A stretch of DNA of 64,000 bases from Chitinophagales bacterium (GTDB lineage: Bacteria; Bacteroidota; Bacteroidia; Chitinophagales; Saprospiraceae), in the NCBI GenBank assembly GCA_013299105.1, contig JAAFJY010000028.1, positions 1 to 64,000 of the forward strand. The letters run 5' to 3'. The stretch's first letter is position 1, and each line of letters opens with the position of its first letter. Under the pieces are notes generated by a model. It saw only the letters and a program-made list of their open reading frames with translations, was not told the DNA's origin and did not search any database. The position numbers and the translations under genes are program-made. Below, one piece after another: positions 397-57,692 of the stretch.

Positions 397-527
397 GGAG
401 CGTAAAAAAATAAGGTGGGTAGGTTTGTGTTTAATAAAAAAAGATAAACAACTGGATGAAAGGATTTGTGTTCTTTTTTTGCTAAACCTCAAAAGCAAAC
501 CTGTTTACTTTATTTTAGCTCAAATAC
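397..527 (+). repeat. foldback repeat FB1, copy 1 (forward)
   Basis: About 131 bp. It starts with GGAGCGTAAAA then ATAAGGTGG, carries AACTGGATGAAAGG in the middle, then TTCTTTTTTTGCTAAACCTC, and ends TTTTAGCTCAAATA. The same order recurs at 34508, 41662, 48565 and 57549. The two halves are imperfect inverted complements, so the unit can fold into one long hairpin. This copy lies 127 bases upstream of the glyS start. Confidence 0.85.
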
Positions 528-590
528 TTATTGCATTATTTTCTCTCAATCTGCCCACATTCTCCAATTTTTCCGCATTTTTGCACCTCG

Positions 591-638
591 ATTTTGAACA
601 AGCGCTTATCATTTTGAACGAGCTCTTATATTTTGAAC
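591..638. repeat. three phased direct repeats ATTTTGAAC upstream of glyS
   Basis: ATTTTGAAC occurs at 591-599, 611-619 and 630-638, spaced 20 and 19 bases apart, that is about two helical turns. The block ends 17 bases before the glyS start codon. Such phasing suits a protein binding one face of the helix, or repeated promoter-like boxes. The role is inferred only. Confidence 0.5.
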
Positions 639-654
639 CCAAAGTGGTATTGTC

Positions 655-2202
655 ATGACCCAAACTGATCTTTTCAAGAGAATAATCGCCCATAGCAAAG
701 AATACGGTTTCATTTTTCCTTCCAGTGAAATCTACGAGGGCCTCAGTGCCGTGTACGATTACGGCCCCTATGGTGTGGAACTGAAAAACAACATCAAAGA
801 CTATTGGTGGGCGGCAATGGTGCAAATGCATGAAAACATTGTGGGTCTCGATGCCGCTATTTTTATGCACCCCAAAACTTGGAAAGCATCAGGTCACGTT
901 GACGCTTTCAACGACCCACTCGTGGACAACAAGGACAGCAAAAAACGCTACCGTGCCGACGTGTTGATCGAGGAAGAAATTGAAAAAATCAAAGCCAAGG
1001 CCGACAAGGAAGTCGAAAAAGCCAAGAAAAAATTTGGCGATAGTTTCGACGAAGCCTTGTACCGCACAACCAACCCACGGGTGGTAGAATACAGCCAAAA
1101 GGCCACTGCCGTAGAGCAACGCCTGGGCAAAGCCATGTCCGCTGGTGACATGGCTGACCTGAAAGCCATCCTCGAAGACTTGGAAATCGCCGATCCGGAA
1201 GGCGGTACCCGCAACTGGACCGACGTGCGCCAGTTCAACCTGATGTTCAACACCCAGTTGGGCAACATTGCGGGCGAAGAAGGCAAACTTTACCTGCGCC
1301 CCGAAACTGCACAAGGTATTTTTGTAAACTTCCTGAACGTACAGAAATCGACCCGCCAGAAAGTACCTTTTGGCATCGCCCAAATCGGTAAAGCTTTCCG
1401 CAACGAGATTGTGGCGCGTCAGTTCATCTTCCGAATGCGCGAGTTCGAGCAGATGGAAATGCAGTTTTTTGTACAACCCGGCGAAGAGATGCGCTGGTAC
1501 GATTACTGGAAGCAGACCCGCATGGCGTGGCACCAAAAAATTGGTACCCCTGCCGAAAAATTGCGCTTCAAAGACCACGACAACCTGGCCCACTACGCCA
1601 ACGCAGCAGTGGACATCCAATACGAGTTCCCTTTTGGTTTCAAAGAACTGGAAGGTATTCACTCGCGCACCAACTTCGACCTGAGCAGCCACCAGGAGCT
1701 GTCGGGCAAAAAATTGCAGTATTTCGATCCCGAAATCAACGAAAGCTACACGCCTTATGTAGTGGAGACTTCGGTAGGTGCCGACCGCATGTTCCTGTCC
1801 ATCTTGAGCCAAGCTTTGCAGGAAGAAACTGTCCCTGACGCGGAAGGCAACGACTCAACCCGTACGGTGCTGAAGTTGCACCCTGCTTTGGCTCCCATCA
1901 AAGTAGCGGTGTTGCCCCTGCTCAAAAACCGCGAGGAGTTGACCAATGCAGCAACGGATGTGTTCAACAAACTAAAGTTTTCTTTCCAGTGTCAGTATGA
2001 TGAAAAAGACGCCATTGGCCGTCGTTACCGCCGCCAGGATGCCATCGGCACCCCATTCTGCGTAACCATCGACTTTGAAACGCTGGAGAACCAAACTGTG
2101 ACCATCCGCGACCGCGACACCCTCGAACAGCAACGCGTACACATTGACCAGATCGAAGGCATTGTGGGCGGAAAAGTGTCGATGAAGAGTTTGATGGTAT
2201 AG
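655..2202 (+). CDS. glyS: glycyl-tRNA synthetase (single-chain, alpha2 type)
   Basis: Charges tRNA-Gly with glycine in the cytoplasm. The 515-residue product is a class II synthetase of the eukaryote/archaeal/Bacteroidota dimeric type, not the alpha2beta2 type. Visible signatures are the N-terminal SSEIYEG and YDYGPYGVELK block, RPETAQGIFVNF near residue 220, motif 2 (FRNEIVARQFIFRMREFEQ), the glycine-site TNFDLSSH stretch, motif 3 (ETSVGADRMFLSIL) and a C-terminal anticodon-binding domain with RYRRQDAIGTPFC. An insertion rich in Lys/Glu follows the first catalytic block. The ATG at 655 precedes the conserved N-terminus directly. It is monocistronic: a repeat and phased direct repeats lie upstream and a terminator-like hairpin lies downstream. 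Confidence 0.97.
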   Translation: MTQTDLFKRIIAHSKEYGFIFPSSEIYEGLSAVYDYGPYGVELKNNIKDYWWAAMVQMHENIVGLDAAIFMHPKTWKASGHVDAFNDPLVDNKDSKKRYRADVLIEEEIEKIKAKADKEVEKAKKKFGDSFDEALYRTTNPRVVEYSQKATAVEQRLGKAMSAGDMADLKAILEDLEIADPEGGTRNWTDVRQFNLMFNTQLGNIAGEEGKLYLRPETAQGIFVNFLNVQKSTRQKVPFGIAQIGKAFRNEIVARQFIFRMREFEQMEMQFFVQPGEEMRWYDYWKQTRMAWHQKIGTPAEKLRFKDHDNLAHYANAAVDIQYEFPFGFKELEGIHSRTNFDLSSHQELSGKKLQYFDPEINESYTPYVVETSVGADRMFLSILSQALQEETVPDAEGNDSTRTVLKLHPALAPIKVAVLPLLKNREELTNAATDVFNKLKFSFQCQYDEKDAIGRRYRRQDAIGTPFCVTIDFETLENQTVTIRDRDTLEQQRVHIDQIEGIVGGKVSMKSLMV

Positions 2203-2228
2203 GAATCAACCAATTCAAAAGAACCATT

Positions 2229-2275
2229 GGGCAGGTCTTATAGTATTTTCTAGGGCCTGCCCTATTTGTTTTGTG
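2229..2275 (+). terminator. terminator-like hairpin after glyS
   Basis: GGGCAGG at 2229-2235 pairs with CCTGCCC at 2256-2262 and is followed by a T-rich run to about 2275. Its position 27 bases after the glyS stop suits an intrinsic terminator, although the 20-base loop is long. Confidence 0.6.
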
Positions 2276-2296
2276 ACCAATGTCCTAAGTTTTGTG

Positions 2297-2854
2297 ATGA
2301 TTGACCTTGCAACGCAAATTACTTTTCTGAACTTCATCGAGTTCAAAATCCCGGCTGAGGAGTTCGAGACTTATTTGTATACCAGTCAAAGTTTGGAAAA
2401 AGAACTCGGGGGCAATCTTTACAGCGATATCATGACTATAAACTACAATGGGAAAGACTGTCGAAAAGAGCTGAACGAAAAAATTCAATCCATCTTTGAT
2501 TACACCGAAATCCACAAAACCCAAATCATTGAAGTCATTGATGCAATCCTGTCAAAACAAAGCATCATCGCTGGGCTTGAAAAATTGCATTCTTGGGCAT
2601 GGAAAGGCTATTCTTTTCTGGGCCATGTTGATGTCATTGGAAATTTCGGCGAGCAGGGCAAGAGCATTATCCTACGGATCGAAGGAGAAGACACGGAAGA
2701 AGAAATTTTTGAGAAAGTGAAATTATACCAACCAGATTTAGAGGAATGCTTGTTGGATATAAAAATAAGGATGCAAAAAGGTCAAATTGTCTTAACTGGC
2801 GAAATGAAACAAGGCATCTACAGTCAGTATTTTGGATACAGAGAGTTGCCATGA
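2297..2854 (+). CDS. hypothetical protein, 185 aa
   Basis: Not recognised. The product is soluble, acidic and mixed alpha/beta in look, with no signal peptide, membrane segment or cysteine motif. Residues around YTEIHKTQIIEVIDAIL and EEIFEKVKLYQPDLEE suggest helices, and the last 30 residues look like beta strands. The frame is open from a GTG at 2273, but that GTG sits in the tail of the glyS terminator, so the ATG at 2297 (MIDLATQ) is preferred. Codon use is more AT-rich than in glyS, which may point to acquisition. It stands alone between glyS and the barrel/SH3 gene. Confidence 0.7.
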   Translation: MIDLATQITFLNFIEFKIPAEEFETYLYTSQSLEKELGGNLYSDIMTINYNGKDCRKELNEKIQSIFDYTEIHKTQIIEVIDAILSKQSIIAGLEKLHSWAWKGYSFLGHVDVIGNFGEQGKSIILRIEGEDTEEEIFEKVKLYQPDLEECLLDIKIRMQKGQIVLTGEMKQGIYSQYFGYRELP

Positions 2855-2944
2855 TTTAGGCAAAAGAGCCAAAGGTTAGCAGCTTTTTTGTTAGCAGCCT
2901 TGTTAAGGTCGGCGGCTTGTCTTTACACATCCAGTCTTTTTACT

Positions 2945-2952
2945 TACCTTTG
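2945..2952 (+). promoter_or_regulatory. candidate -7 box for the barrel/SH3 gene
   Basis: TACCTTTG matches the Bacteroidota -7 consensus TAnnTTTG. The nearest TTG (2917-2919) is 25 bases upstream, longer than the usual 19-21, so only the -7 box is well supported. It lies about 110 bases before the start at 3063. Confidence 0.45.
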
Positions 2953-3062
2953 TTGAATAGCAAGTTGTGATGTTCACCCAAACTTGCATTTTGTCATGGA
3001 AATAAGAAGGGATTTATTCCCCAAAAACCGAATACTAACAACTCCACATAATTCCATGTACT

Positions 3063-5501
3063 ATGAGAAACAATTACCCACTGTGTTGGGGGAAAAAAGC
3101 TCCAGCTTTATTTTTGATTTCCCCCCTTGTTTTTTTTATGCTGACTTGTGTTACCAATCTACAAGCGCAACGCAATTTCAGCGTATCCAGCCTTTCTTTT
3201 TTGCCGCAGGTCAATCGGGTCAATCCGGGGCACTTGCCACAAGAAACGTACCTCAACTTCCCAATCGTAGGCAATTTGAATGGTGGTTTCACCAACCAAG
3301 GATTCGGTTATCGTACCTTTGGCTTTTTCCAGCCTGGCAACAAAATAGTCAACGCAGCCACTGGCTTTTACAACTTGGATTTCGCCGATCTGTTGGGCGA
3401 AATGGGATCGGTAGAACGCTTGCAATCCCATGCCAATGCGGCATTGATCGACTTTGGCTTGCGCAAAGGCGATAATTTTTTCAGTTTTCAAGTCACTGAA
3501 AACCTTTTTGTAAGGGCTGATTGCCCCAAAGACCTGGTGCAGCTTTTTGCCAATGTGAAAAGTGGATCCTCGGTGGATCGCCAGTACGATTTGAGCGCTT
3601 TCAGCCTTGAGGGTTTACATGATCGAACTTTTAGCTTGGGTTTTTCCCGTAAAATCAATGAGCGATTTTCAGCAGGTTTGCGGGCCAAGCTGGTCAGTGG
3701 CATCGGCAGTGTTACTTTTGACAACCGCAATTTTGGCATGGCCAGTTTTTCCGATAATCCTATTTTTCAGGTGTCGGGAGATTTGTTTTTCCGCTCGGCG
3801 GGCTTTTTGGCGGGTTCTCGCTCGGCTTCTGAGTACCTGGGCGGTACTGGCAACTGGGGCTTTGGCTTCGACTTGGGTGCTGAGTATAAAGTAAACCAGG
3901 AAGTGGAGTTTTTCTTCAGTGCCCTCAACATCGGCTCGACCAACTGGCGCAAAAATGTATACATCAACAACTCACGGGGTGAAGACTGGCATTTTCAAAC
4001 CCAAAACGAAGGCCAATTTACCAACCAAACCATCCGATTTTTGGACAGCCTGGGGCAAACCTCTCCTTCCACGGAAAGCTACAAGCGCTCCTTGCCCTTG
4101 AGTGCTTACATCGGTGGGGCCTACCATTTATCTGAAAAGTCAAAAATCCAGGTGATGATCAACCCTACTTTGTTTTTAGGGGACACCGACATAGGCTTTT
4201 CGGCTGGGTACACCACTCAATTGGGCAAAAATGTACAGGCTACGATCAATTACGCCTATTTCAATGGTGCGCCACTCAATATCGGAGCAGGAATAGCTGC
4301 AAACCTTGGCCCGATCCAGGTTTTTGTCAGTTCCGACAACCTGCCTTCGGTAGTAGGCTTGAGTAAAGCACAAAACGCCCATCTGAACGGTGGCTTGAAC
4401 ATTCGCTTGGGAGGCAAAAAGAAAAACCAGCCAATCGATACCAGTCGCATTGTAAACCCTGGTACCAATGTGCACAAGGTAAACCGACCCTTGGAACAAA
4501 ACCTGGTCAATAATCCAATCCAAACGGAACCGGACACCCAATTGGTAGCTAACCCGCCCCAACCTACTCAAGAACTTCCGCAAGAAGAACCAAAACCGCA
4601 AGAAGAACCAAAACCAACGGAAGAGCCCACCAGGCCACAAGAGGAACCAAAACCAACAGAGGAGCCCAAACCAAGTGATCCACCCAAGCCACAGGAAGAG
4701 CCAAGCCCAAAACCTGTGGAGCCACAGGAAACGAAACCTGCGGATCCCAAGCCCATTGAACCTGCACCTGTAAAAGAACAAGTGCCCAATCCACCCGTGC
4801 AGGAAAGCAAACCAAAACCTGGACCTGTGGCTCCTTCTCGTGCGCCCATCATCACTGCCATTGCTTCGCAGCGTGGCAACCTGGGCGACTTGAAAAACAC
4901 CCTTTATCTCAAAGGCAAGTCGATCAACAGCAGCAGCCAAGAAGAAATGGGAGGCACCACCGCTGAGGTATTTGTGAGCAATCCAGGGGCCAAGGAATAC
5001 CTGGGTTACATCCGGGCCTTTACCACTCCAGATGTGACCTTGTTGCTCCAACGCAACCAAAACTATCGGGTGGTTTTGAAAAAGCAAGGCTATGTAAAAC
5101 TGGAATTCAGGCTTACTCCTGATGAAATGGCCGCCGCAGAGATGCTGGAGGGTACTTTCTACTTAGACCCGCAAGCCGAAGTACCCGTAGTGCCCGTAGT
5201 ACCTGCCCCACAAACGCAGCCTAAGCCAAAACAGAATACGGCTCCCGTAAACAATCCAAGCCAAACCAGTGAGAACCCAGTCAAACCCACGGTCAGCAAA
5301 GCCAAGTCTTTGGGCGTATACAAAGTGGTGGCAACCGGCAATATGAAAACTGGCGCAGGGGAGCAATTCGACAACTTGCTGATGATGCAAGTAGGCTACC
5401 GCGTGGAATTGCTCGACAAGTCGAATCCCGACTGGTGGCTGATCCGCTTCCGCGACAATGTGGGATATTTACCCGCGAAGTCGCTGCTGATTGAAGAGTA
5501 A
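3063..5501 (+). CDS. PorP/SprF-like (DUF5723-type) outer-membrane barrel with Pro/Glu linker and C-terminal SH3 domain
   Basis: 812 residues. A signal peptide (about residues 1-35, hydrophobic core then LQAQ) is followed by an all-beta region to about residue 450 resembling DUF5723/PorP-SprF barrels (FSVSSLSFLPQVNRVNPGHLP, FGLRKGDNFFSF). Next come about 110 residues built of PQEEPKP/TEEPKP units (nt 4555-4840), a compact beta domain (about 598-695), a second Pro/Gln/Val linker, and a final 65 residues resembling a bacterial SH3 domain (VYKVVATGNMKTGAG, WWLIRFRDNVGYLPA). PorP/SprF proteins serve type IX secretion and gliding, while bacterial SH3 domains often bind peptidoglycan. I infer an outer-membrane protein whose long tail reaches the cell wall. 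It is monocistronic with a strong terminator. Confidence 0.8.
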   Translation: MRNNYPLCWGKKAPALFLISPLVFFMLTCVTNLQAQRNFSVSSLSFLPQVNRVNPGHLPQETYLNFPIVGNLNGGFTNQGFGYRTFGFFQPGNKIVNAATGFYNLDFADLLGEMGSVERLQSHANAALIDFGLRKGDNFFSFQVTENLFVRADCPKDLVQLFANVKSGSSVDRQYDLSAFSLEGLHDRTFSLGFSRKINERFSAGLRAKLVSGIGSVTFDNRNFGMASFSDNPIFQVSGDLFFRSAGFLAGSRSASEYLGGTGNWGFGFDLGAEYKVNQEVEFFFSALNIGSTNWRKNVYINNSRGEDWHFQTQNEGQFTNQTIRFLDSLGQTSPSTESYKRSLPLSAYIGGAYHLSEKSKIQVMINPTLFLGDTDIGFSAGYTTQLGKNVQATINYAYFNGAPLNIGAGIAANLGPIQVFVSSDNLPSVVGLSKAQNAHLNGGLNIRLGGKKKNQPIDTSRIVNPGTNVHKVNRPLEQNLVNNPIQTEPDTQLVANPPQPTQELPQEEPKPQEEPKPTEEPTRPQEEPKPTEEPKPSDPPKPQEEPSPKPVEPQETKPADPKPIEPAPVKEQVPNPPVQESKPKPGPVAPSRAPIITAIASQRGNLGDLKNTLYLKGKSINSSSQEEMGGTTAEVFVSNPGAKEYLGYIRAFTTPDVTLLLQRNQNYRVVLKKQGYVKLEFRLTPDEMAAAEMLEGTFYLDPQAEVPVVPVVPAPQTQPKPKQNTAPVNNPSQTSENPVKPTVSKAKSLGVYKVVATGNMKTGAGEQFDNLLMMQVGYRVELLDKSNPDWWLIRFRDNVGYLPAKSLLIEE

Positions 5502-5515
5502 ATTGGTTGTGACAT

Positions 5516-5564
5516 AAAAAGCAAAAGCGTTGCCGCATGATTTGCGGCAACGCTTTTGCTTTTT
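5516..5564. terminator. strong bidirectional terminator
   Basis: A perfect 22-bp stem (5516-5537 with 5543-5564) and 5-base loop, with A-tract and T-tract ends. It lies 14 bases after the stop at 5501 and between convergent genes, so it can serve the barrel gene and block read-through either way. Confidence 0.92.
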
Positions 5565-5573
5565 AAATATCTG

Positions 5574-5748
5574 GTAATTCGTAAAAACTTAGGCTAGCGG
5601 TTTCGAGACAAAAAAGATGACGGTTTTTCGTCAGCCGAGCCTACTTTTTGTGGGGGTAGCAGGTGCTACCTTCACAAAAAGTGGCGAAGGATCACGGAAA
5701 AACGGCCTTTTTGGGCCGAAATGGGAGCAGGCTAAGCTTTTACGGTAA
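5574..5748. repeat. long imperfect foldback element
   Basis: The two halves are diverged inverted copies. CGTAAAAACTTAGGCT near 5580 matches the complement of AGGCTAAGCTTTTACG near 5730. Within this, ACTTTTTGTG (5643-5652) pairs with CACAAAAAGT (5673-5682), and GGTAGC pairs with GCTACC around a short loop. It contains no coding frame of note. It resembles a MITE or an old foldback insertion in the convergent gap. Confidence 0.65.
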
Positions 5749-5789
5749 TTCAAGTAAATGGTCAAAACTTAGGATTGAAACCTTGGCCC

Positions 5790-8800: not shown

Positions 8801-11449
8801 AGCGGGTTGGTCTAATCGGAATTGGTATTCCCGTTCAGCTCCGTTGAAAGTGCGCGTGCCAGTGTAGCAATTTTTGTAGGCATTGCCACCGATGTTGGTC
8901 GCATAGCGGTTGTCGCCACTCAGGGTTCCATTCACTGCTACATTGCACTGGATCGGCGTGGGGTTGGCCCGACAAGTGCCTTCTGGCAATACCGAAAAGG
9001 CATAAGTCGTATTCGGCCGGGTTGCCATCACTAGGATGTAATAATAGCCTTTTTGGGTAAAGGTTTCTCCATCGCGGCCAATGCAGCGGAAGCGATCCAA
9101 GGTACTGCTTTGCCCCCCCTGCGGACAGCGGTAAATGAAGGCACGTACTCCATTGGTGCCGGTCAAGCTGATGTTGAAAGGCTTGGCCTCGTCGTTGTAA
9201 AACACGTAAGTATGCCCCAAAAGGGTGTCCAATGGCCGCTGGGTGAAGGTCGTGGTCACACAAGTATCCTGCCAGCTCAAACTTGGTGCTTGGTCGCTCA
9301 AGCCAATCGTACCCGAAAAACGATCCGCCCGGTGAATCATGGTGCCCCCCAAGTCACATACCGATACACATGGCCCCAATTCCGCAGCAGTATAGAGGTC
9401 ACAACGCGCCAGGCCCTCATTGCGGTAGCTGCGGCCATTGGCCAGGCACACGGGCGCATTAGGGCCAGTAGCACAAGCCACATCTTTAGCCCACATGCAG
9501 ATGTTGTCGATAAAAAAGTCATTGTTGGCTGCGGCGTAGAAATTCAAGGCACCCAGCACTTTGGAACTGACGGGGTTGCCGATGCTGAAACGCCAGCTGT
9601 GTACCATTTGGTTGTTCATCCACAATTCTGCTACATCGCGGTCAAGGTCAATGATCTGGGTCACTTTAAACCAAGTACCAGGGCTGTAGAAGAAGGTCCC
9701 CACGACGGTGCTGCTAAAAGCCAAGCGCGCCTGACCTGAGCTTAAAAACGACACCTGATAGGCCCAGTTGGGATTGGCCCCCCCCGCATCGGTGTGTTGG
9801 ATGTTGTAGTAAGCCGCTTGGCCCCTGGTCACGAACATGCTCCAGGACAAACGGTAGCGGCCCGTGGTGCGATTGCCCAGTGAAATGAGCACATCAGATT
9901 GGGTCGTGCTGTTGCCCGTCAGGCGCATCACCTTGCCAGCGGCTCCGCTGGTGGTGGTGATTTGGGCATCAGCCGCAGCAGCGTCCCAGCGCTTCCAGCG
10001 GTTGGTTTGGGCGGCTAAGGCACCATTATTATATACATCAAAGTTTTCGCAGAGCACATTGGGGCCATTGGGCATGTCTGAACCTTCAGCACAGCTGCAT
10101 CCACAACTCAGGGTCAGGTTGAAATTGCCGGAGGCTCCGGCTTGCAAGGCATCCACGACCAGGAAATAAGTGCCCGGTTCCAGGAATACGCTGAAGCTTT
10201 CCTCGCGGCTGCTCAAATTGTTGTTGGTGCTTGAGGCTATGCAATAAGCGCATTCTGGCTGGCTGGTGGTAGCGAATGGATAGGTCAAGCAGCTCGACAA
10301 GAGAAACATGTCCAGGTTCACTGCGGGATCAAGGATGTTCATGGTGGCTTGCAAGTTGCTGGGCTCAGTTACCACAATGCGGTAAATCTTGTCGTTGCCG
10401 CCGTAAGCATTTTGGGTAGCCACGCAAGAAGAGAAGTCTTTGGAACTGAAACTATTTTTAGCAGTAATGCCGCCCGTCGTTTGGTTGCTAAGGGTTTGCC
10501 CACAGGTGATGGCCACCGCGTCGACACAAGCGCTCACGCCAGGGTTGCAAGCTCCCGCAAAAGCTTCTTCGCCCTCCACATAGCCGTCGAAGGCTGGCAA
10601 ACCACAAGCATTGGTGGGTTGATAAGGGATGGCCCCGCCCAAACAATAAGAAGCGGCTGGTGTGCCTGGGCAATTGCCCCCTGAAAATACAGGAGCCCGT
10701 TGCCAGCAGATTTTGTCGATGTAGTATTCAAAACCGTCCCGCGCATAAAAGTCGATCGCGCCTAGTTTTTTGTCCAAAACCCGTTGATCACCCTGGCCAT
10801 CGTTGTTGAGGTCCACCAGGCCAGGGCTGAAACGCCAGCGTGCCACCAAGCGGTTGTTGAGAAAAAAGTGCACGCTGTCCTTGTCGAGGTTGATCACCTG
10901 GGTCACTTTCAGCCAGCAATCGGGGCGGAAAGAAGCGATACGGGTGCGCGCTTCGGCGGCAACGCGCACTGACACTTGGCCATCAGGGGTGAAAAACACC
11001 TGATAAGCCCAGTTCGGCTGCCCACGCATGAGGCGGCGAAAATCGTGTTGGATGTTGAAGTACCCCGTTTTGCCAGCAGGCACGTACATTTTCCACGACA
11101 AGCGGTGGATGCCGGTGGTGTTGTCACCCAAGTCTTTGACTACATCGGGTGCAGCCCCGTTGGCGTCGGGGCGCATCAAAAGAGCGCGCTGGCCTTCATA
11201 CCGGCGACTACTGACCAGGTTGGCTGGTACATAATCATCGGCGGTGATGGCCGTACCCGGCCAGGTCCACCATTTCGTGAAACAGCGGTTGTTGAGGGTG
11301 TCGCAGTTGCTGCGCACAAAAGTTTCGCAATTGTCTTCGCCCAGGCATTGCCCTCCCAGGTTCTCACCTGCACAACAAGTAGTTTGGGCTTCCGCAAAGG
11401 CGGTAAATAGGAAAAAGCACAATAGCGTAAAAAGTACCGGTTTTCTCAT
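5831..11449 (-). CDS. giant T9SS-secreted multidomain surface protein (lectin-like, BACON-like, Ig/PKD-like, SprB repeat)
   Basis: 1872 residues. A signal peptide (1-21) leads to a Cys-rich start and a concanavalin-like beta-sandwich (about 35-250, STCCAG/NIQHDF/WRFSPG region). A pre-peptidase-type domain follows, then a second copy of the sandwich (about 455-650; NIQHTD, WRFSIG) and two more pre-peptidase-type domains. A BACON-like domain (about 1115-1190) precedes five tandem repeats starting VDLGPD or similar (about 1190-1590, each with YRWSTGATT-like and YSVTVTxxGC motifs), a PKD-like domain, a SprB-type repeat (about 1640-1710) and a T9SS sorting domain (YPNPTNAEVSLELE). I infer a cell-surface adhesin or polysaccharide-binding protein. 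No catalytic residues were identified. Convergent with the barrel gene. Confidence 0.88.
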   Translation of the reverse strand: MRKPVLFTLLCFFLFTAFAEAQTTCCAGENLGGQCLGEDNCETFVRSNCDTLNNRCFTKWWTWPGTAITADDYVPANLVSSRRYEGQRALLMRPDANGAAPDVVKDLGDNTTGIHRLSWKMYVPAGKTGYFNIQHDFRRLMRGQPNWAYQVFFTPDGQVSVRVAAEARTRIASFRPDCWLKVTQVINLDKDSVHFFLNNRLVARWRFSPGLVDLNNDGQGDQRVLDKKLGAIDFYARDGFEYYIDKICWQRAPVFSGGNCPGTPAASYCLGGAIPYQPTNACGLPAFDGYVEGEEAFAGACNPGVSACVDAVAITCGQTLSNQTTGGITAKNSFSSKDFSSCVATQNAYGGNDKIYRIVVTEPSNLQATMNILDPAVNLDMFLLSSCLTYPFATTSQPECAYCIASSTNNNLSSREESFSVFLEPGTYFLVVDALQAGASGNFNLTLSCGCSCAEGSDMPNGPNVLCENFDVYNNGALAAQTNRWKRWDAAAADAQITTTSGAAGKVMRLTGNSTTQSDVLISLGNRTTGRYRLSWSMFVTRGQAAYYNIQHTDAGGANPNWAYQVSFLSSGQARLAFSSTVVGTFFYSPGTWFKVTQIIDLDRDVAELWMNNQMVHSWRFSIGNPVSSKVLGALNFYAAANNDFFIDNICMWAKDVACATGPNAPVCLANGRSYRNEGLARCDLYTAAELGPCVSVCDLGGTMIHRADRFSGTIGLSDQAPSLSWQDTCVTTTFTQRPLDTLLGHTYVFYNDEAKPFNISLTGTNGVRAFIYRCPQGGQSSTLDRFRCIGRDGETFTQKGYYYILVMATRPNTTYAFSVLPEGTCRANPTPIQCNVAVNGTLSGDNRYATNIGGNAYKNCYTGTRTFNGAEREYQFRLDQPARIHLSLQAQAGAGAFLYDFLCGKNCIAFAEIPDAGGTVRSDTLLLDPGVYYVIVDQAQAGGNGNFTLNVNCVNASDPLFLQDGVGTCAQSGSARHNVTLRTLRNSRFNGQRLNERDQILFFHTKNSLGQLLAANGNWNNSEIRIPLAEDATGDTTKCGFTNNELLVVKINKNNAIYDAIPVFQPVDGGTVTAGAGFAAGGASLITELRADGIPHSLRVSPAARKVPGQGGSFEVKVAANMNWRVRKRAQASWIKLPSSQGFANEVLRVEIDPNNSNNDRADTLYIIGSDNELQKVVVEQAKTACAAISVDLGADRSICRGDQVQISATVAGASFRWSGGQTTNSISVSPQVNATYSVTVTQNGCTGVDEVNINVKDIPVVDLGPDLGLCAGDGIVFVATGGDSYRWSTGATTANVNIRPTQRTTYSVTVTKDGCSGTDAIVVGIDQAPTVSITPAQNICAGQSVTLFATGGSTYLWDNGRTTASISVNPTTSKEYLVTVTNGNCSAIGRTTVNVTPSANVALGPDISICEGDRPTITANAGPGTYRWSNGASTSSITVSPSTNANFIVTVTNGNCISIDDINVNVAPKPTVDLGPDKSACSGQVLTLIPSGTGGVTYRWNTGATAASIQVQPTSAAEYAVTVTRNGCTATDQVNIGVSDPPIANAGPDLVLNCNITTLRLDGSRSSAGPSITYQWAELGGDGRITAGRNERIATINKIGNYNLLVTNTSSGCTSNDLVTVTGTEPVEITSIQLLEVRCFGEATGSATLTAAGGLGPYNFSWSNGSTGSAINRLKADRYRVTISDQGNCRDTVEIEIKQPDPIKLASVRITPAPSGNTGAIAVTITGGVPPYDYRWFRGNDLLAATQNISNLALGDYVLEVYDANNCSLRSSPITVGRTVAVAEPLELKYFNLYPNPTNAEVSLELELPNTRDLQISLYDPLGRELERRKMPKVLRLRENFDLSTRPGGIYWFKITDGKQVSMKPVMVAR

Positions 11450-28309: not shown

Positions 28310-28402
28310 AGTTGAGAGGTTGAGGAGTTGAGAAGTTGAGGAGAGCAGAAAGACCTGGAAAGTTGAAATGTTGAAGGGTTGAAATGTTGAAATGTTGAAA
28401 AG
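28310..28402. repeat. tandem octamer repeats GTTGARRN
   Basis: About a dozen units. First GTTGAGAG/GTTGAGGA/GTTGAGAA-type, then after a short break GTTGAAAT/GTTGAAGG-type, each 8 bases. Purine-rich on the plus strand. Located right after the GH3 stop. Confidence 0.85.
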
Positions 28403-29039
28403 AGGGTGCCTGAATGATGCTAAGTCACTATGAATATGGGTATTTTGTTTTTGGCTCAAGTTGGGTTTTAAGTTGAAAATAGATTTGGGTTGTGCCTACA
28501 TCAAAGTTAAGTCTCTTAGCCTTAGGTTAGACTTGGTCTATGGTCCTTTTTTTGAGTGACGACTTACGAGTGACGACTTACGAGTGACGACTTACGACTT
28601 ACGAAGTAGGGGCTCGCTGGCAAGATCTTAGGGTGCTTAGTACCCCATTTTCACGTTTGGTGTTTTTGAGTTAGCCTCTATTTTGATCTGATGATAAGGT
28701 TTTGAAAAACAATGATTTACAAACAGAGTTCAAGTCCATTAAGGATGCATGAATTTTACTCGGTTTTGATTGAGAAAACTTGAATCGTAAAAACGATGAT
28801 TTGATGAACCACAAATTTTCAATCGAAGCCCTACTTCGTAAGTTGTAAGTCGTCATTCGTAAGTCGTCACTCAAAAAAAGTCTTTGTGGCTTCATGACCA
28901 GCACAAACTCGTTTTGAATCACCACTTGAAACCCAATAAGAGCCTTATTTTCTATTTTACCCCTTCTTTTTCCGACTAAACCTTCAATATTTGCGCACGC
29001 TTTAATCGACATAACACCTCAAATTTTTGCTTACCCCAT
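28403..29039. other. GH3-lysE intergenic region
   Basis: Apart from the flanking octamer arrays and the heptamer-ended element at 28547-28880, no gene is seen in this gap of nearly 800 bases. The short minus-strand frames here are translated repeats. Confidence 0.5.
28547..28880. repeat. 334-bp element with heptamer-built inverted termini
   Basis: The left end (28547-28612) reads T7 then GAGTGAC-GACTTAC three times, GACTTAC, GAAGTAGGG. The right end (28828-28879) is its inverted complement with one repeat unit fewer: CTACTTC-GTAAGTT-GTAAGTC-GTCATTC-GTAAGTC-GTCACTC then A7. The 215-bp interior has no coding frame. This looks like a non-autonomous inverted-repeat element (MITE-like) whose ends are heptamer arrays. 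Confidence 0.75.
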
Positions 29040-34250: not shown

Positions 34251-34507
34251 GACAACCTAAATTTGTGCACACATGCTGAATAAATGGGTTTGGTAGCTTT
34301 GAGCAATTGAATAAGGCAAGTTAGCTATTTTTGTACTCATAGACGAGAAAAAATCATAAAACCAGCGGCGATCTTGCAGGAAAGTACTTCTAACTTCAAA
34401 ACACCATTTCGCAGCAAGCAAGTTGAACTTTGACAGATCTTTCTGATGAACTTGTTGGTCAGAGCTGCGATTTTTTTGTAAAACATACTGCTCAAAATGC
34501 TATTTTG
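34251..34507. other. divergent intergenic region, left part
   Basis: The gap between CotH (minus) and MFS (plus) is 483 bases. TATTTTTG at 34326-34333 could be a plus-strand -7 box, with TTG spacings of 16 or 24 that are not ideal. Foldback copy 2 follows. A stretch with ACTTCTAACTT and CAGATCTTT near 34390-34440 is echoed near 41310-41330. Confidence 0.4.
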
Positions 34508-34638
34508 TATTTGAGCTAAAATAAACTGGGCATATTTGCTTTTGAGGTTTAGCAAAAAAGAACACAAATTCTTTCATCCAGCTGTTTTTATTTTTTTCAC
34601 CAAACCCAAATCCGGCCACCTTATTATTTTACGCTCCC
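34508..34638 (-). repeat. foldback repeat FB1, copy 2 (reverse)
   Basis: Reverse orientation: begins TATTTGAGCTAAAATAAAC and ends TTACGCTCC. The inner block CATCCAGCTG and the arms GGTTTAGC and CCAAACCC match the other copies. It ends about 95 bases upstream of the MFS start. Confidence 0.85.
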
Positions 34639-41197: not shown

Positions 41198-41544
41198 CAA
41201 GGGTATGTATTCTCGGTTAAACATACTTTATAGTAGGCTTTATGAACCCGTTATTTTTTTTGAATAAACACCCACCTGGTTCTAAGATTTCAGTTGCCAA
41301 AGTGTTGCGACTTCTAACTTTTGCAGATCTTTGTTGACTTTGGTGTAGCATAGATGGAATACCTTGTGCCGCTACTGATTGATACTTTGCTCTCCACAAC
41401 AGTTGTTAGAAAAACGCTTTTTCAAAACACTTCAAAAAATTGAATTTTTTGATCCTTAGTACAGCGTTTTTGAGTTCTTGTAAGGTGGTTTGTTTACTTT
41501 AATTGAGCACAAATACTCATCAGAAAACCCGTTGTTCAAAAATA
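41198..41544. other. long 3' region after nadK
   Basis: Over 340 bases without a gene. It includes a nested hairpin 41410-41471 (AAAAACGCT/AGCGTTTTT outside, TCAAAAAAT/ATTTTTTGA inside). A stretch at about 41483-41520 (TTGTTTACTTTAATTGAGC and following) resembles the right arm of foldback repeat FB1, and may be a decayed remnant. Confidence 0.4.
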
Positions 41545-41584
41545 AAAATCCCCCTTTCAACACTACGATCGAAAGGGGGATTTT
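41545..41584. terminator. strong bidirectional terminator
   Basis: AAAATCCCCCTTTC (41545-41558) pairs perfectly with GAAAGGGGGATTTT (41571-41584), a 14-bp stem with 12-base loop and A/T tails. It can end nadK (plus) and the coiled-coil gene (minus). Confidence 0.9.
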
Positions 41585-41661
41585 GGCAGATGCTTGAAAA
41601 GTTGAAAATTTACCTTGCTGCCATTTAGGGCCGCCAAAGGCCGGTTTTAAATGATGCTGAG

Positions 41662-41800
41662 GGAGCGAAAAAAAAGGTGGACGGATTTGGGTTTAGCGAA
41701 AAAAGAGCACTACCAGTTTAAGCAACTGGATGAAAGGAAGTTGTGTTCTTTTTTTGCTGAACCTCAAAAGCAAATATGTCCATCTTTTTTAGCTCAAATA
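41662..41800 (+). repeat. foldback repeat FB1, copy 3 (forward)
   Basis: Starts GGAGCGAAAAAAAAGGTGGACGG, contains CCAGTTTAAGCAACTGG, an extra block shared with copy 5, and ends TTAGCTCAAATA. GGTTTAG (41690-41696) faces CTGAACC (41757-41763), a G-T wobble in the stem. It lies at the 3' side of the coiled-coil gene, unlike the others. Confidence 0.85.
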
Positions 41801-41821
41801 CTAAATTTTTCAAAAGAAGGA

Positions 41822-48401: not shown

Positions 48402-48564
48402 GTTTTTGTTTGTTTATCTTGGGTAAAAAAACACTGCCGATTTATTTCGGCTAAAAAAAGGCAAGTTCGGCAATTCCGAGGCTAGTTGCTGCAAAAAACG
48501 CCAGGTTTAGGTGGGATTTACCCATTTTTTTGTCCAACTTTTGCCCGATTCACTTGTTTTTATG

Positions 48565-48696
48565 TATTTGAGCTAAAATAAGGTGGCCATATTTGCTTTT
48601 GAGGTTTAGCAAAAAAAGAACACAACTTCCTTTCATCCAGTTGCTTTTCTTTTTTCACTAAACCCAAATCCGTCCACCTTATTTTTTTACGCTCCT
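48565..48696 (-). repeat. foldback repeat FB1, copy 4 (reverse, abuts msrB)
   Basis: ATAAGGTGG (48578-48586) pairs perfectly with CCACCTTAT (48674-48682), GGTTTAG (48603-48609) with CTAAACC (48658-48664), and CAACT with AGTTG around the centre. It ends GCTCC only 2 bases before the msrB ATG. This is the best-paired copy. Confidence 0.9.
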
Positions 48697-49358: not shown

Positions 49359-49402
49359 CGTTGAGGAGTTGAGTGGTTGAGGAGTTTAGAAGTTGAGGAG
49401 TA
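49359..49402. repeat. octamer repeats GTTGARRN
   Basis: GTTGAGGAGTTGAGTGGTTGAGG, then AGTTGAGGAG, in the 56-base gap between the 93-aa gene and the DUF2520 gene. Confidence 0.75.
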
Positions 49403-49411
49403 GGGCTTCGC

Positions 49412-53097: not shown

Positions 53098-53138
53098 AAA
53101 ACTCGGTAGGACAGATCAAGGACTGTACAATTCACTGC

Positions 53139-53534
53139 TTACCCCTGCTTGTTGCGGATGGCGATTTCTTCGTCTTTGTACTTGGATGGACACTTGAGCA
53201 ACATGTCTTTGGCCAAAAATTCGCCATTGTTCATTTGGCCAGTGACCACGATCTGCTCAGACAATTCAAAGTCCTGGGGTTTGCTTTTCAACAAAACCAC
53301 TTTTTGCTCTTTGCCATCGGTGTCTTTGATGTAAAAGCTGAAATAGTTGGGATCTTTGATCGGGTCATACACCATTGGTTTGTCTTTGACCAATTGACCA
53401 GCGATTTTCACGGTGCGGTTTTTGCTTTCCGCTTGGGCAAAAGTGGAATAGGTGCCCATGTCCTTGGCTGAGTTCATCAGCAGGGCGATGGCTGCGGCCA
53501 ACATCAGGCCAGCAATGATATAGATGCGTTTCAT
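53139..53534 (-). CDS. ccmE: heme chaperone CcmE, CxxxY variant
   Basis: Periplasmic OB-fold chaperone carrying heme to CcmF. 131 residues: an N-terminal anchor (RIYIIAGLMLAAAIALLM) then the OB-fold. The heme-binding His of the usual HxxxY motif is a Cys here: LLKCPSKYKDE reads CxxxY, as in the CcmE variants described in some archaea and Desulfovibrio. Hence heme attachment would be through Cys. It is first in the ccmE-ccmF operon. No ccmA, B, C or D lies next to it in this window. Confidence 0.93.
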   Translation of the reverse strand: MKRIYIIAGLMLAAAIALLMNSAKDMGTYSTFAQAESKNRTVKIAGQLVKDKPMVYDPIKDPNYFSFYIKDTDGKEQKVVLLKSKPQDFELSEQIVVTGQMNNGEFLAKDMLLKCPSKYKDEEIAIRNKQG

Positions 53535-53670
53535 CCTACAAGCATTTGAGAGTTAGCACAAATAAAGCAGTGCTTTTTCAGTGGACAAATTTACGCCGCT
53601 TTTGTTGGCAATGCGCGGCAAGTTTCGGCATTTTTGGCGGATAAAGGCAGATTTTGACTGATTCTAAATA

Positions 53671-53705
53671 AAAAAGATCGATTGATGAGCCCAACCGATC
53701 TTTTT
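53671..53705 (-). terminator. terminator of the pseudo-peptidase/barrel gene
   Basis: AAAAAGATCG (53671-53680) pairs with CGATCTTTTT (53696-53705). It is 26 bases after the stop of the gene at 53731 (minus). Confidence 0.85.
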
Positions 53706-53730
53706 ACAAGACTTCTACAAGGCTTGTTTA

Positions 53731-56700
53731 TCAAAAATCCATGCCTAAACTCAGGTACAATTTCGGTTTTTGAACCCGCCGAGTATCAATGCCCCAAGCA
53801 TAGTCTGCCCTCAAGAAATACCCAAATAAGGTGGTTCGAGCCCCAATACCATAGCCAGCTACCAATGGATCCCGGAAATAGTTGATGGTGGTAGTAATGA
53901 AAGGTCCGCTTTTGAACCGGGTGGTATTGATTGGGTTGTCGTCGCGATAGGGCGAGAATCCTTCCCAGGCTGTTCCCATGTCAAAAAAGCCGATGACCTG
54001 GAAGTTTTTCAGCAGTGGAGATTGCACCCGGCGAGAAATATACCGAATCAAGGGTACCCTTAATTCGGTATTCAGCAGTGCAAAGGAGTTGCCATTGCGG
54101 ATATTAATTGGGAAGCCGCGCAAATTGGCCACCAAAGTTTGGAACGCAAAATTGCCACGCGGCACTGGAATATCGTTGTTTTGTTGTGCGAACAACCACT
54201 GGTCCATGCCCCCCAGAAAATAAAGTACCCGTTCGGAACCAAAGGAAGTACCACCAGTTAACCTTGCTGCCAAAACGGACAAGCGCAGCACCCGTTGGTA
54301 ATGCCGCACATCCATGTTGAGTACCGTCATAAAACCCTTATTGAAATTCACATCCAATCCTGACTCATTGTTGACGGAGAATTTTTTCTGCATTTCAACA
54401 AAAAAACGATAACGGGTGCCTCTGCGTAGGTTTACAGCGAGGTCAACGGTATTGTCAAAAACATACTCTAGGCGCAAGCCAATGCGCTGGTCAGCTTGGT
54501 CGAGGGGGCTACGCTGGTCAATTTGAGAATTGATATCGGTCAGCAAGCGCGTGGTGCGGTCGCGACGCAAAGTCCCAGTGGCTTGAATGCGCCTGAATAC
54601 ATCCAATGGGTAGCGCACCCCAAATTGCCCCATTAAAATATTGTACTCATCGCGGATCGGGGTAGTCCGGCTTTCGCGGTTGAGGCGGGTATTGCGGGTA
54701 TAAATGGAGTAAAATTTATCCAGGCGTTTTTTGCGGTTGTTGAAAGTCAAGTAATATTCGGTACCATTAAAGGAAGTAGGCACGCGAATTCCTCCCTCAA
54801 ACTCATAATCCTCAAACAAGTCCTTGACATTGGCTTTGAGCAGCATGCCAGGAGGAGGAGGTTGAAAACCATCCGGGTTGGCGGCAATGGATTCCATGCC
54901 TTCAAACAACAAGGAGTTGTCGACTTGAGTGGTCATAAAGTCGGAACGGAACTGCAAACGGTAAGGAATGGCCTTGGTGGGGCTGAGCATATACAACTTC
55001 TTCTGGGTGTTGAACAAGGGGAATGAGGCCGTGGTTTCGGAATTCAAAGGCTTGGGCGTTTCAAGCGGCTTGGGTAATTCAGGCGTCTTGGTATTAGGTT
55101 TATACGTTCCAGGCGTGGTGTATTCTCGCTGGAGTTCGGGGGTTTGCTCTCTGGGGCTTTCCGCTGCCTTGTTTGTCTTTTTTACAGGCATGGGCAAGGC
55201 AAACTCACTTTGAAACAGATAGGGCTCGTCTTCTTCTACTTTTGGAAGGCTATCCACCACCAGTGGGTTTGGAGGGGTAATGAGCAGGTTGACTTCTTGT
55301 TTGGGCAGCGTATCCAATTTAGTTGGCGAGGGAGGTGCAGGAAGATTGGCATTCACTGCGGGCAAGCTGTGCAGCAACACACTGTCTCTTTGAGCTTGCT
55401 TGCTTAGGCTTTGCAGCTCTTTTCTGCGAAAAAAAGTACCTGCGCCTTGTCGCACCTGTGCCGGATTGTGCTTGCTGATGTAAAAAGTACGCCGGCCCAA
55501 AGCTGTAAATGTCTCTACCATTTTGTTGCTGTTGGCTGCCACGTGGTGCATGGCCAAATGAAAGGGGTAATCCGTTTGGCTGTGGGTGATAGAGCGTTGC
55601 CTGATTTCGGGTAAAACCCGCACGGAGTCGATTTGGGTGCTGTCAAGGCTGCGCATGGTCGAATCCATCGGCCAGTTTAGTTCAGTGCCGTCTTTGAGGT
55701 ACACATGCTGGCGGTATTCGCGGATGTAATCCTCTAGTCGGGCCGATTCGCGGTTGTGAATCCCATCTCGGTCGCTGATGTAAGTAAAGTAGGTGGTGTC
55801 GATGGCCACAGGCATGCGTTCATTCGCCAGTGGGGTATGGGTTACCCGTACAAACTCGCGGATGGGACTTTGCAGGTCGTAGTAAAAAAGATCGAAGGTA
55901 CCGATCGGCAGAATGCTATCTGGGCGTGCGGTTTTGAAAAAAATACTTTCCCGATTTGAGCTAAAAACGATGCCTCTCCGGTTGCGAACTTTGACCGCCA
56001 CCGCGTCCAAATCGTCGTAAATATCATTGGTGATCCTGGTGCTTTGGCGGGTCCTGACAGCATAGGTGAAAATATCAGATTGCCCACTGACTTCGGCGGA
56101 AAGCAATAGGTTGAAATTGTCGAGGTAATCCAGGCTGTACACCCGTTGGTACTGCTCCGAGAATAATTCAGTAGTGGTTTTGTCTTTGGAAATATCGTAA
56201 GTGGATAGTTTCAGGTTGTCGCGCCTTTCGTACAAAATGGCGATTTGTTGCCCGCTGGGGCTCCAGGCAATGAGCGGGTAATTGTAGTCGGTGGATTGCA
56301 GCGCATTGCGGAAGCCCTCTTTGAAGATGCGCTTTTTCTTCTTTTGCTGGAGGTCGTATAAGTAAATTTTGGTGCGTCCCTGGTCATTGAGCACATAGGC
56401 CAAGCGGGTGCCATCGGGGCTGAGTTTGAGTTGGGTAACTGGCAGGCGGTCGCGTTTGCGAAAAGTGATGAGTTGATCGGCTTGTGGTATTTGTCGGCCT
56501 TTCAAGTCGCTTTCATACCGAGCGCGGAAAAAAGCATCCCACTCCTTGGTCGTGGCCTGAAAAGACTGGTCGAGCACGTACAAAAAGCCACTTTCCACGC
56601 TGCGGTTGATGCGGGTAAGGTAGAGCAGGCTCGATACCGAAGGCCGCCCATATTTTTCACTGATAAAATACCACATTGACTGGCCCGCCAAGCGAGGAAA

Positions 56701-57339
56701 ATCATCGGCAAAGCGCTCGAATTTTTTGTACTTGCGCGACATCAGGATGTTGCGCAATTGGTTGTCCTGTTCCACGTTCCAGGCTTCGCCTGCGTAGGCG
56801 ACCAGGCCTTCTTTGAACCAATTGGGTAAGTTCAACAATACTGCATTTTGCACAATTTCTTGGATATTGGCCCCAAACAACATGGTGTTGAGGTACACCG
56901 CAGCGATGCCCTCTCGCACCTGCGCCCTTAGGTTGAGGTGATTTCCATCAAAATAGACAAAGATGGTATTACCAGATACTTTGGTTTGACCATTGGCATT
57001 GACAAAAAGTTCTTCCGAACCAATGTTGCTCTGCTTCACATCGGTTACGTCAGAGTACACGATGATTTGCAGTTTTTCGTTCATGCGGTGCTCCAACAAG
57101 GTCTGGATCTCATCAAAATCGTATTCTGCCATTTGCACCACCTTCTGTGCAGCGGTGCGCGATTTTCCGTAATAGTAAACGAAGAAATTGTCGCTCTCAT
57201 ACTGCGACCAATCCTGAAAATCATCGTGGTACTGCACCCGGTTTTTGCCAAATTTTACTTGCGTTCCGCCTTGTGCCAAGAGCTGAACGGGGATTGAAAA
57301 AAGCAAGACCAAACGAAAAATGTAGTTGATTCTCAACAT
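53731..57339 (-). CDS. fusion: degenerate MA-type peptidase domain, PD40 propeller, Pro linker and Omp85-like barrel
   Basis: 1202 residues. Signal peptide about 1-22 (ends QLLAQ). Residues 35-260 resemble gluzincin-like Peptidase_MA domains: FFVYYYGKSRTAAQKVV, then LPNWFKEGLVAYAGEAW, but where HExxH is expected there is REGIAAVYLN, so it is probably inactive. Residues about 290-550 form TolB-type PD40 blades (LSPDGTRLAYVLNDQGR, WSPSGQQIAILY, SNRESIF). A Pro/Thr-rich linker (about 660-820) leads to a C-terminal beta-barrel (LLRADYAWGIDTRR-type end, LSLGMDF), like Omp85 C-termini. The start at ATG 57339 is fixed by the signal peptide. No family name is known to me for this architecture. Confidence 0.82.
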   Translation of the reverse strand: MLRINYIFRLVLLFSIPVQLLAQGGTQVKFGKNRVQYHDDFQDWSQYESDNFFVYYYGKSRTAAQKVVQMAEYDFDEIQTLLEHRMNEKLQIIVYSDVTDVKQSNIGSEELFVNANGQTKVSGNTIFVYFDGNHLNLRAQVREGIAAVYLNTMLFGANIQEIVQNAVLLNLPNWFKEGLVAYAGEAWNVEQDNQLRNILMSRKYKKFERFADDFPRLAGQSMWYFISEKYGRPSVSSLLYLTRINRSVESGFLYVLDQSFQATTKEWDAFFRARYESDLKGRQIPQADQLITFRKRDRLPVTQLKLSPDGTRLAYVLNDQGRTKIYLYDLQQKKKKRIFKEGFRNALQSTDYNYPLIAWSPSGQQIAILYERRDNLKLSTYDISKDKTTTELFSEQYQRVYSLDYLDNFNLLLSAEVSGQSDIFTYAVRTRQSTRITNDIYDDLDAVAVKVRNRRGIVFSSNRESIFFKTARPDSILPIGTFDLFYYDLQSPIREFVRVTHTPLANERMPVAIDTTYFTYISDRDGIHNRESARLEDYIREYRQHVYLKDGTELNWPMDSTMRSLDSTQIDSVRVLPEIRQRSITHSQTDYPFHLAMHHVAANSNKMVETFTALGRRTFYISKHNPAQVRQGAGTFFRRKELQSLSKQAQRDSVLLHSLPAVNANLPAPPSPTKLDTLPKQEVNLLITPPNPLVVDSLPKVEEDEPYLFQSEFALPMPVKKTNKAAESPREQTPELQREYTTPGTYKPNTKTPELPKPLETPKPLNSETTASFPLFNTQKKLYMLSPTKAIPYRLQFRSDFMTTQVDNSLLFEGMESIAANPDGFQPPPPGMLLKANVKDLFEDYEFEGGIRVPTSFNGTEYYLTFNNRKKRLDKFYSIYTRNTRLNRESRTTPIRDEYNILMGQFGVRYPLDVFRRIQATGTLRRDRTTRLLTDINSQIDQRSPLDQADQRIGLRLEYVFDNTVDLAVNLRRGTRYRFFVEMQKKFSVNNESGLDVNFNKGFMTVLNMDVRHYQRVLRLSVLAARLTGGTSFGSERVLYFLGGMDQWLFAQQNNDIPVPRGNFAFQTLVANLRGFPINIRNGNSFALLNTELRVPLIRYISRRVQSPLLKNFQVIGFFDMGTAWEGFSPYRDDNPINTTRFKSGPFITTTINYFRDPLVAGYGIGARTTLFGYFLRADYAWGIDTRRVQKPKLYLSLGMDF

Positions 57340-57469
57340 ATGGGTGCTGTTTTTTGTAATGCGAACAGTCAGAATTTTTGTTGGGCGGAGTTTGAGTTTC
57401 AGGGGTCGGAAATAAAAAAACGCTCTAATCAATAGACAGTTGTAAGCGCAATTGGTTTTGGATTTAGCA

Positions 57470-57507
57470 AGTTTTGGCCAAGAAAATAGGGATCATTGGC
57501 CAAAACT
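57470..57507. promoter_or_regulatory. perfect 12-bp inverted repeat
   Basis: AGTTTTGGCCAA (57470-57481) and TTGGCCAAAACT (57496-57507) form a perfect palindrome with a 14-base spacer, in the divergent gap before the barrel gene and foldback copy 5. It could be an operator or hairpin. Confidence 0.5.
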
Positions 57508-57548
57508 GCCAATAATTTAGGCATTTTTGCACTTCTGCACAAGCAAAC

Positions 57549-57692
57549 GGAGCGTAAAAAAATAAGGTAACCGGATTTGGGATTAGTGAAAAAGGAGAAC
57601 TACCAGTTTAAGCAACTGGATGAAAGGAAGTTGTGTTCTTTTTTTGCTAATCCTCAATAGCAAATTTGGGGGCCTTATTTTAGCTCAAATAT
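57549..57692 (+). repeat. foldback repeat FB1, copy 5 (forward)
   Basis: GGAGCGTAAAAAAATAAGG at the left and CCTTATTTTAGCTCAAATA at the right. Here the paired bases read GGATTAG (57580-57586) and CTAATCC (57647-57653), while other copies have GGTTTAG and CTAAACC: both arms changed together. It ends 15 bases before the MBL start. Confidence 0.88.

Follow-up and report, generated by a model that had tools for sequence, protein, structure and literature searches.

We analyzed a stretch of 64,000 nucleotides from a Chitinophagales bacterium of the Saprospiraceae (the window, G000:C21:1-64000; its genome, G000, comprises 7.67 Mb in 77 contigs) that carries five copies of a foldback repeat, FB1. 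A reading made from the letters alone, the sequence-only reading, had placed these copies in both orientations, and this was borne out: R2, a model built from 17 sequences with 3 of the 5 window copies among them, matches all five with E values from 1e-39 to 1.1e-27. Copy 1 (396..527, + strand) is a full element running from G to C, upstream of a class II aminoacyl-tRNA synthetase gene; the trinucleotides beside it, CAA (393-395) and TTA (528-530), do not match. Copy 2 (34507..34638, - strand), also a full element, lies upstream of an MFS gene and has AAA on both sides, an exact 3-bp repeat. Copy 3 (41661..41801, + strand) is a long-loop form with flanks TGA/TAA, not an exact repeat. The best-scoring copy of the window is copy 4 (48564..48696, - strand), whose left end adjoins the start codon of msrB/SelR and whose flanks, ATG/ATA, are inexact in the standard register. 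Copy 5 (57548..57692, + strand) is again a long-loop form, has the exact 3-bp repeat AAA, and precedes a metallo-hydrolase gene. The first base is A in copy 4 and C in copy 5, and the last base of copy 5 is T. Four copies do therefore stand upstream of a gene, as had been claimed, and copy 3 sits between converging genes. The two halves of the unit had been said to pair, and all five copies fold (z-scores for copies 1 to 5 of -5.1, -1.7, -9.0, -7.6, and -5.9), copy 2 only weakly, since 9 of 200 shuffled sequences fold equally well. Both stem changes singled out earlier, the GGATTAG/CTAATCC double change of copy 5 and the G-T wobble of copy 3, are real.

FB1 is abundant outside the window. The exact left end, GGAGCGTAAAA, occurs 226 times in the genome, against 2 occurrences of a reversed control pattern, and the right end, TTTTAGCTCAAATACTWA, with up to 2 mismatches, occurs 334 times against 3 for its control. 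A genome search with a first covariance model gave at least 150 matches, with all 150 scored candidates matching. The element is non-coding, about 133 nt long, and ends in G|GGAGCG and CAAATAC. The unit described before is present as a repeat, but in 102 clean-ended copies the duplication statistics put each end one base farther out: the 3 bases before G|GGAGCG equal the 3 after CAAATAC at 90, 85, and 87%, compared to 56, 45, and 78% expected. An exact 3-bp duplication, the target-site signature that we looked for, flanks 88 of the 139 full-length copies that were fetched (shuffled mean, 26.2; maximum, 43), and of the 55 copies with a left trinucleotide other than TTA or TAA, 29 still repeat it exactly. 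Copies from other genomes behave alike, with exact repeats in 24/38 against 8.3 when shuffled (maximum, 16); in this count, 2 of 40 rows were dropped by an orientation filter, and one locus enters through 3 sister genomes and another through 2. Mean similarity between FB1 copies is 89%, with a median of 97% for nearest neighbors. In a terminal inverted repeat test, the outermost bases proved unpaired and were followed by a 4-bp foot and then an unequal internal loop. When relatives were examined for empty sites, the spacer of copy 5 was found to be orthologous in congeners G001-G004, all of which lack the element; owing to divergence of the spacer, the empty site is not exact to the base. FB1 is thus a non-autonomous mobile element in its behavior: its copy number, both orientations, the 3-bp duplication, and the absence of copy 5 from the congeners' spacer all support the proposal that it resembles a miniature inverted-repeat transposable element (MITE).

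Some copies carry inserts that resemble other small elements. One of them, L192 (G000:C45), is interrupted by another kind of small element, GAGCGTGTTTAAA...TTTAAACATGCTC, which is flanked by TTA at either end. On the same contig, L186 and L187 (G000:C45:165370 and 167603) are near-identical atypical right ends 2.2 kb apart, inside a duplicated stretch.

Special placement before genes, as leader RNAs or regulatory hairpins, was not supported. In a set of 127 copies with crude open reading frame (ORF) calls, the 94 copies with both neighbors called comprise 31 divergent, 45 tandem, and 18 convergent sites, which, with no formal null, looks like ordinary intergenic placement. A called 5′ neighbor lies within 20 bp in 23/120 cases, and orientation relative to tandem neighbors is mixed (27 same, 23 opposite). 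We also considered gene disruption; removal of 137 copies joined ORFs in 10 cases, and by eye the pieces were not convincing broken genes. Just upstream of one FB1 copy, a locus in contig C18 (L010:1258-1469) holds a tRNA and, after it, a match resembling Y RNA (YrlA, 40.8 bits, under the gathering score of 69). In genus g105, the same insertions with the same flanks occur in sister genomes (L212, L228, and L230, and L216 and L227, from G340, G304, and G244); these older copies could date the decay of the fold after insertion.

FB1 is one member of a wider family. FB1-like right ends were found in genus g69, 16 in G072 and 2 in G226. Full copies from this genus start GTGAGCGTATAAAAATAAG and end AATAC, have an exact 3-bp repeat in 4/5 cases, and fold like FB1 (z -9.4 to -11.5 for 3 copies). 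R2, which models FB1 plus the g69 copies, matched 15/398 Saprospiraceae genomes in 10/112 genera, own genus counted, in a strictly filtered search that scored 8 candidates for each genome. A wider model, R3, matched 18 of 19 chosen genomes with 4 to 97 matches each, 14 of the 19 having been chosen because R2 had matched them. The numbers were 54 in G001, 22 in G002, 78 in G003, 97 in G004, 83 in G072, 37 in G226, 19 in G164, 9 in G269, 10 in G340, 15 in G304, 20 in G244, 9 in G131, 39 in G160, 47 in G173, 6 in G301, 4 in G133, 57 in G047, 25 in G195, and 0 in G007; they are matches rather than copies, as a strong copy may match both strands and weak ones may be other long hairpins. Across 395 genomes drawn from the whole phylum, G000 was the sole R3 match, an absence that is soft because of the strict filters and the 8 candidates per genome. 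The congeners have a 122-nt family, GGGGCGATAAAAA...TTTTTGCCCCACTAC, with the same layout and without the tip motif. Two matches of the first model, L041 in G007 and L042 in G004, look like unrelated hairpins and were set aside. An exact 23-mer had no match in GTDB contigs or IMG/VR, where the bacterium's own genome was possibly left out. A 19-mer scan brought up at least 7 stretches from unrelated taxa, and R3 finds nothing in the 5 of the 7 listed that were searched with it. Copy 4 had no match in plasmids or phages, and the congeners' 122-nt element had none in plasmids, the only set searched.

What the family shares is its fold. When 26 members were folded singly, 24 had a 3′-side bulge of 4-10 nt, counted by hand (the exceptions are L221 and L040), and most also had a foot stem, a 5′ internal loop, two long stems, and a six-pair tip hairpin; most diverged members fold alike on their own. 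In copy 1, these parts lie on the + strand as follows: the conserved 5′ end, with unpaired bases, the GAGC foot stem, the 5′ internal loop, and the start of the long stem, at 396..415; the tip stem-loop at 445..471; the one-sided bulge, about CTCAAAAG, at 488..495, with counterparts in other genera; and the conserved 3′ end, TTTATTTTAGCTCAAATAC, at 509..527. The tip is the part best conserved between genera. Ten representatives compared with one another have an identity of 0.69 for the tip, 0.65 for the bulge, and 0.60 for each end; for arm A it is 0.37-0.38, and for arm B, 0.50-0.53. The 11-nt tip loop starts and ends with GA in 7/10 genus representatives, and these ends presumably form tandem G-A pairs. 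In an alignment of 29 members, 93.9% of cells pair, and 45 of 48 pairs have changed on both sides; both-side changes occupy 331 cells, compared to 94.2 when shuffled and at most 94 when slid. These counts are flattered by the fitting of the alignment to the model, while the single folds are independent of it. A covariance-model search of the genome and its relatives thus gave ten Saprospiraceae genera with a common fold whose arms change yet pair.

We then considered when pairing is kept. The 139 FB1 copies were aligned with MAFFT (alignment A2); a structure that RNAalifold derived from the MAFFT alignment was poorer than single-copy folding and was dropped. Covariation is present within FB1 as well, with 96 cells against 21.3 when shuffled. 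However, changes private to one copy are about as dense in stems (66/94 columns, 0.70 per column) as in loops (23/37, 0.62), and those in stems break the pair in 45/65 cells and keep it in 20. Variants found in 2-3 copies break it in 59/90 cells, whereas those found in at least 4 copies keep it in 63% of cells. Among 20 rare double changes, that of copy 5 included, 11 pair and 9 do not. The sequence-only reading had proposed selection on the fold. This is supported across genera and among multiplied variants and not for resident copies, in which pairing is not maintained. The kind of pair also differs. Among pair variants that depart from the commonest pair, the ratio of wobbles to A-C mismatches is 11/16 for private changes, 16/18 for variants in 2-5 copies, and 9/0 for those found in over 5 copies (p 0.004); counted as pair types between genera, it is 39/17 (p 0.005), in an alignment fitted to the fold. 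Since a wobble on one strand is an A-C mismatch on the other, the family seems to be filtered on the fold of one strand during multiplication. These data suggest that one strand's fold matters when copies multiply, as single-stranded DNA or as RNA. Shorter forms exist too: L178:514-559 in G072 and L180:539-582 and L181:3488-3534 in G226 are only 44-47 bp long, and a form of about 70 bp lies at L132, about 709-778, in G000.

If single-stranded DNA at the replication fork were used, the orientation of copies should follow replication. In G072, the 60 listed of 83 matches comprise 22 + and 11 - at positive GC skew and 9 + and 18 - at negative skew (40/60; p 0.019). The best two-arc split of this genome, 1.995-5.997 Mb (permutation p 0.02), coincides with the switches in skew.

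Elsewhere in the window, a weak remnant at 41483..41520 had been taken as a sign of decay. Its letters do resemble a right end on the + strand, possibly a decayed short one, but the model does not bear this out: the best score is 8.4 bits (E 0.075) at 41467-41571 on the - strand, with 3.8 bits (E 1.5) at 41484-41515 on the + strand. Between this possible remnant and copy 3, a 17-pair hairpin at 41545-41584, AAAATCCCCC...GGGGGATTTT, is followed by a T-rich stretch on the minus strand and is terminator-like. The window also has minisatellite runs of the GTTGAAAT/AGTTGAGG type at 28310-28414, 49359-49404, and 59931-59976; the second run has many short matches in congeners (query about 9354-9417).

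The search for a mobilizing enzyme yielded no parent among the candidates. Two pairs of distant ends in G000 were rejected, C2:79367-81316 as ordinary genes and C1:311682-314844 as separate or interrupted copies, and longer end-bearing copies carry unrelated inserts. A 1.72-kb candidate from G072, L170:494-2216, holds a gene for a 480-amino-acid transposase with its own inverted ends, CTAATCTTTATACACA, and a 10-bp duplication; it is an FB1 relative into whose hairpin loop a distinct insertion sequence has jumped. Atypical ends L184-L193 did not yield a parent either. Ten neighbor proteins in other genomes fell into unrelated Pfam families (7) or none (3). A scan for HUH-like motifs, confined to fetched DNA, gave loose matches judged spurious; Y1_Tnp and reverse transcriptases were not searched for genome-wide.

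We think it probable that FB1 is a non-coding, non-autonomous mobile element whose folded top strand is the substrate at some step. FB1 would insert mostly at TTA/TAA-like trinucleotides, duplicating 3 bp, and would be mobilized in trans by a putative enzyme. The substrate would be the strand with GGGAGCG at its start, in the form of RNA or single-stranded DNA; in its predicted fold, a foot stem leads to a long arm stem that has a 5′ internal loop, and a one-sided bulge mostly of 6-8 nt is followed distally by a second stem and the six-pair tip hairpin with its 11-nt loop. That the fold is read on a single strand, and by a protein, is what we infer.

Several observations weigh against this proposal. 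A duplication of 3 bp is what one commonly sees with DDE enzymes that act on duplex ends. The 44-47- and ~70-bp forms have lost most of the hairpin and keep both ends and the 3-bp repeat (TAA, TAA, TAT, and TTA); movement of these forms themselves would mean that the fold is dispensable, although they may be later deletions. Private changes keep pairs above a neutral simulation (20 against 9.4; standard deviation, 2.6), a simulation that itself rests on 23 loop changes. The 9/0 wobble comparison has low counts, its variants are possibly not independent of one another, and an alignment fitted to the fold underlies the cross-genus counts. No orientation bias was seen in G000, either by contig skew, which is poorly estimated (p 0.73), or by within-contig agreement (p 0.47). 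The 8 DDE_Tnp_1 matches in G000, the only transposase family searched for genome-wide, include none flanked by FB1 ends on both sides; one of them, L145, is near a lone left-type end and, without a second end, was rejected as a parent. Finally, genes that are common beside copies in at least 3 genera look like host genes, and none is mover-like.

FB1 could instead be an ordinary MITE of a DDE insertion sequence, its arms being long terminal inverted repeats read as duplex and its hairpin incidental. Some IS5-type groups make 3-bp TNA duplications, FB1 duplicates 3 bp at TWA-like sites, the shortened forms retain both ends and a 3-bp repeat, and one FB1 copy harbors a second small element, which has other ends and a TTA repeat. 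We nevertheless find this account unlikely, if well worth keeping in mind: the arms vary more between genera than the tip hairpin and the bulge, widely copied variants have wobbles rather than A-C mismatches, which duplex recognition would not favor, and the DDE_Tnp_1 genes of G000 lack such ends on both sides. A different kind of mover, a Y1 HUH enzyme (TnpAREP, perhaps of Bacteroidetes subclass 2.6), would carry the hairpin as single-stranded DNA in the manner of repetitive extragenic palindromes (REPs) and their REP-associated tyrosine transposases (RAYTs). HUH enzymes are not expected to make a 3-bp duplication, and FB1 has one. High copy number, mostly intergenic sites, and a single-strand fold agree with such a mover, as does the orientation bias in G072, which has no parallel in G000. 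Several families end ...CTAC, the complement of GTAG, but on the wobble-favored strand this tetranucleotide is at the 3′ end; FB1 is also ~133 nt long rather than 21-65 nt, and the HUH-like matches in fetched DNA, short of a genome-wide Y1_Tnp search, were judged spurious. According to PMC6006769, TnpAREP genes of Bacteroidetes have atypical secondary structures on their flanks, which recur at other places in the genome, and the structures of subclass 2.6 are called weaker. On balance, we hold mobilization by a Y1 HUH enzyme to be decidedly unlikely.

The tolerance of G-U pairs, the GA-framed tip loop, and the one-sided bulge look RNA-like, and an element that is transcribed, folded, reverse transcribed, and inserted would account for them. 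The constant 3-bp duplication speaks against this route, to which we give a small chance; the intact ends of fetched copies say little here, since these copies were chosen as high scoring. Complementarity of the arms might also come from mutation, by template switching in the hairpin, and not from selection. Paired double changes like that of copy 5 would follow, and 11/20 rare double changes do pair, yet private changes mostly break pairs and template switching would not favor wobbles among common variants, which makes this origin very improbable. Hardly credible, in our judgment, is the idea of regulatory hairpins or leader RNAs selected at each gene. The 23/120 called 5′ neighbors within 20 bp are what it has in its favor, against private changes that do not spare the stems relative to loops and usually break the pair, the use of convergent sites, and the absence of FB1 from the orthologous copy 5 spacer.

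Beyond the proposal of a folded top strand as substrate, we raise a more specific idea only tentatively, as it is rather doubtful: FB1 might represent a new class of mobile element, known only in Saprospiraceae, in which a whole-element hairpin would have to be a correctly folded single strand, whether of RNA or of lagging-strand DNA, in order to multiply, would be read via its conserved GA-framed tip and one-sided bulge, and would make a 3-bp target duplication. If true, a folded single strand combined with this duplication would make it neither a REP/RAYT nor a DDE MITE system. A single-strand reading, if right, would mean an unrecognized mobility system with its own enzyme in a bacterial family, with matches in 18/19 of the chosen genomes and ends by the hundred in one genome. 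In FB1, the requirements of a mobile hairpin have been tested repeatedly by nature: private changes report what residents tolerate, and common variants report what the mover demands. It also follows that compensatory changes in repeats need not imply a regulatory RNA.

The sequence-only reading knew of no named family with this sequence, and none turned up in Rfam or in the literature searched. The window had 0 Rfam matches at gathering score, and at E values up to 1 across 8 loci, MIR8562 was the sole match to overlie an element (E 0.1; 29.1 bits, gathering score 211). We found no recognizable description in the literature on Saprospiraceae or Bacteroidetes elements, hairpin MITEs with 3-bp duplications, or Bacteroidetes RAYTs, a search with subscription journals mostly outside its scope. 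Among known systems, the ends of IS200/IS605 elements and their non-autonomous derivatives also have single-strand hairpins as substrate, and their lagging-strand targeting would fit the bias in G072. At either end they have small subterminal hairpins (20-25 nt), whereas FB1 is one whole-element hairpin, and no duplication is expected of IS200/IS605. REPs and REPINs with their RAYT resemble FB1 as abundant intergenic hairpins in genome-specific families with a single-strand fold. They are not known to make a target duplication and have hairpins of 20-65 nt, in contrast to the 3-bp duplication and about 133 nt of FB1. FB1-type 5′ ends are, for example, GGG, GAG, and GTG, with no 5′ GTAG, and CTAC or ATAC stands at the 3′ end of the folding strand, as chosen by wobble counts; no linked tyrosine transposase was seen beside FB1 in fetched DNA. 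REPs of 20-40 bp are sorted by GTAG and CGTC tags in PMC3733652. The bacterial MITEs listed there (RUP, NEMIS, ERIC, and Nezha) are 70-300 bp long, non-coding, present in many copies, mostly intergenic, foldable, and flanked by duplications. FB1 is like them in length range, lack of coding capacity, copy number, intergenic sites, fold, and duplication. It differs in that its ends, with a 4-bp foot and unequal loops, are not a plain terminal inverted repeat, its tip hairpin is better conserved between genera than its arms, and no parent insertion sequence was found among those checked. The Bacteroidetes TnpAREP subclass 2.6 shares with FB1 its phylum and hairpins copied elsewhere, a comparison made by description; PMC6006769 describes its atypical structures as weaker and without GT[AG]G. 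The Bacteroidetes TnpAREP genes are the best lead to the putative mover of FB1.

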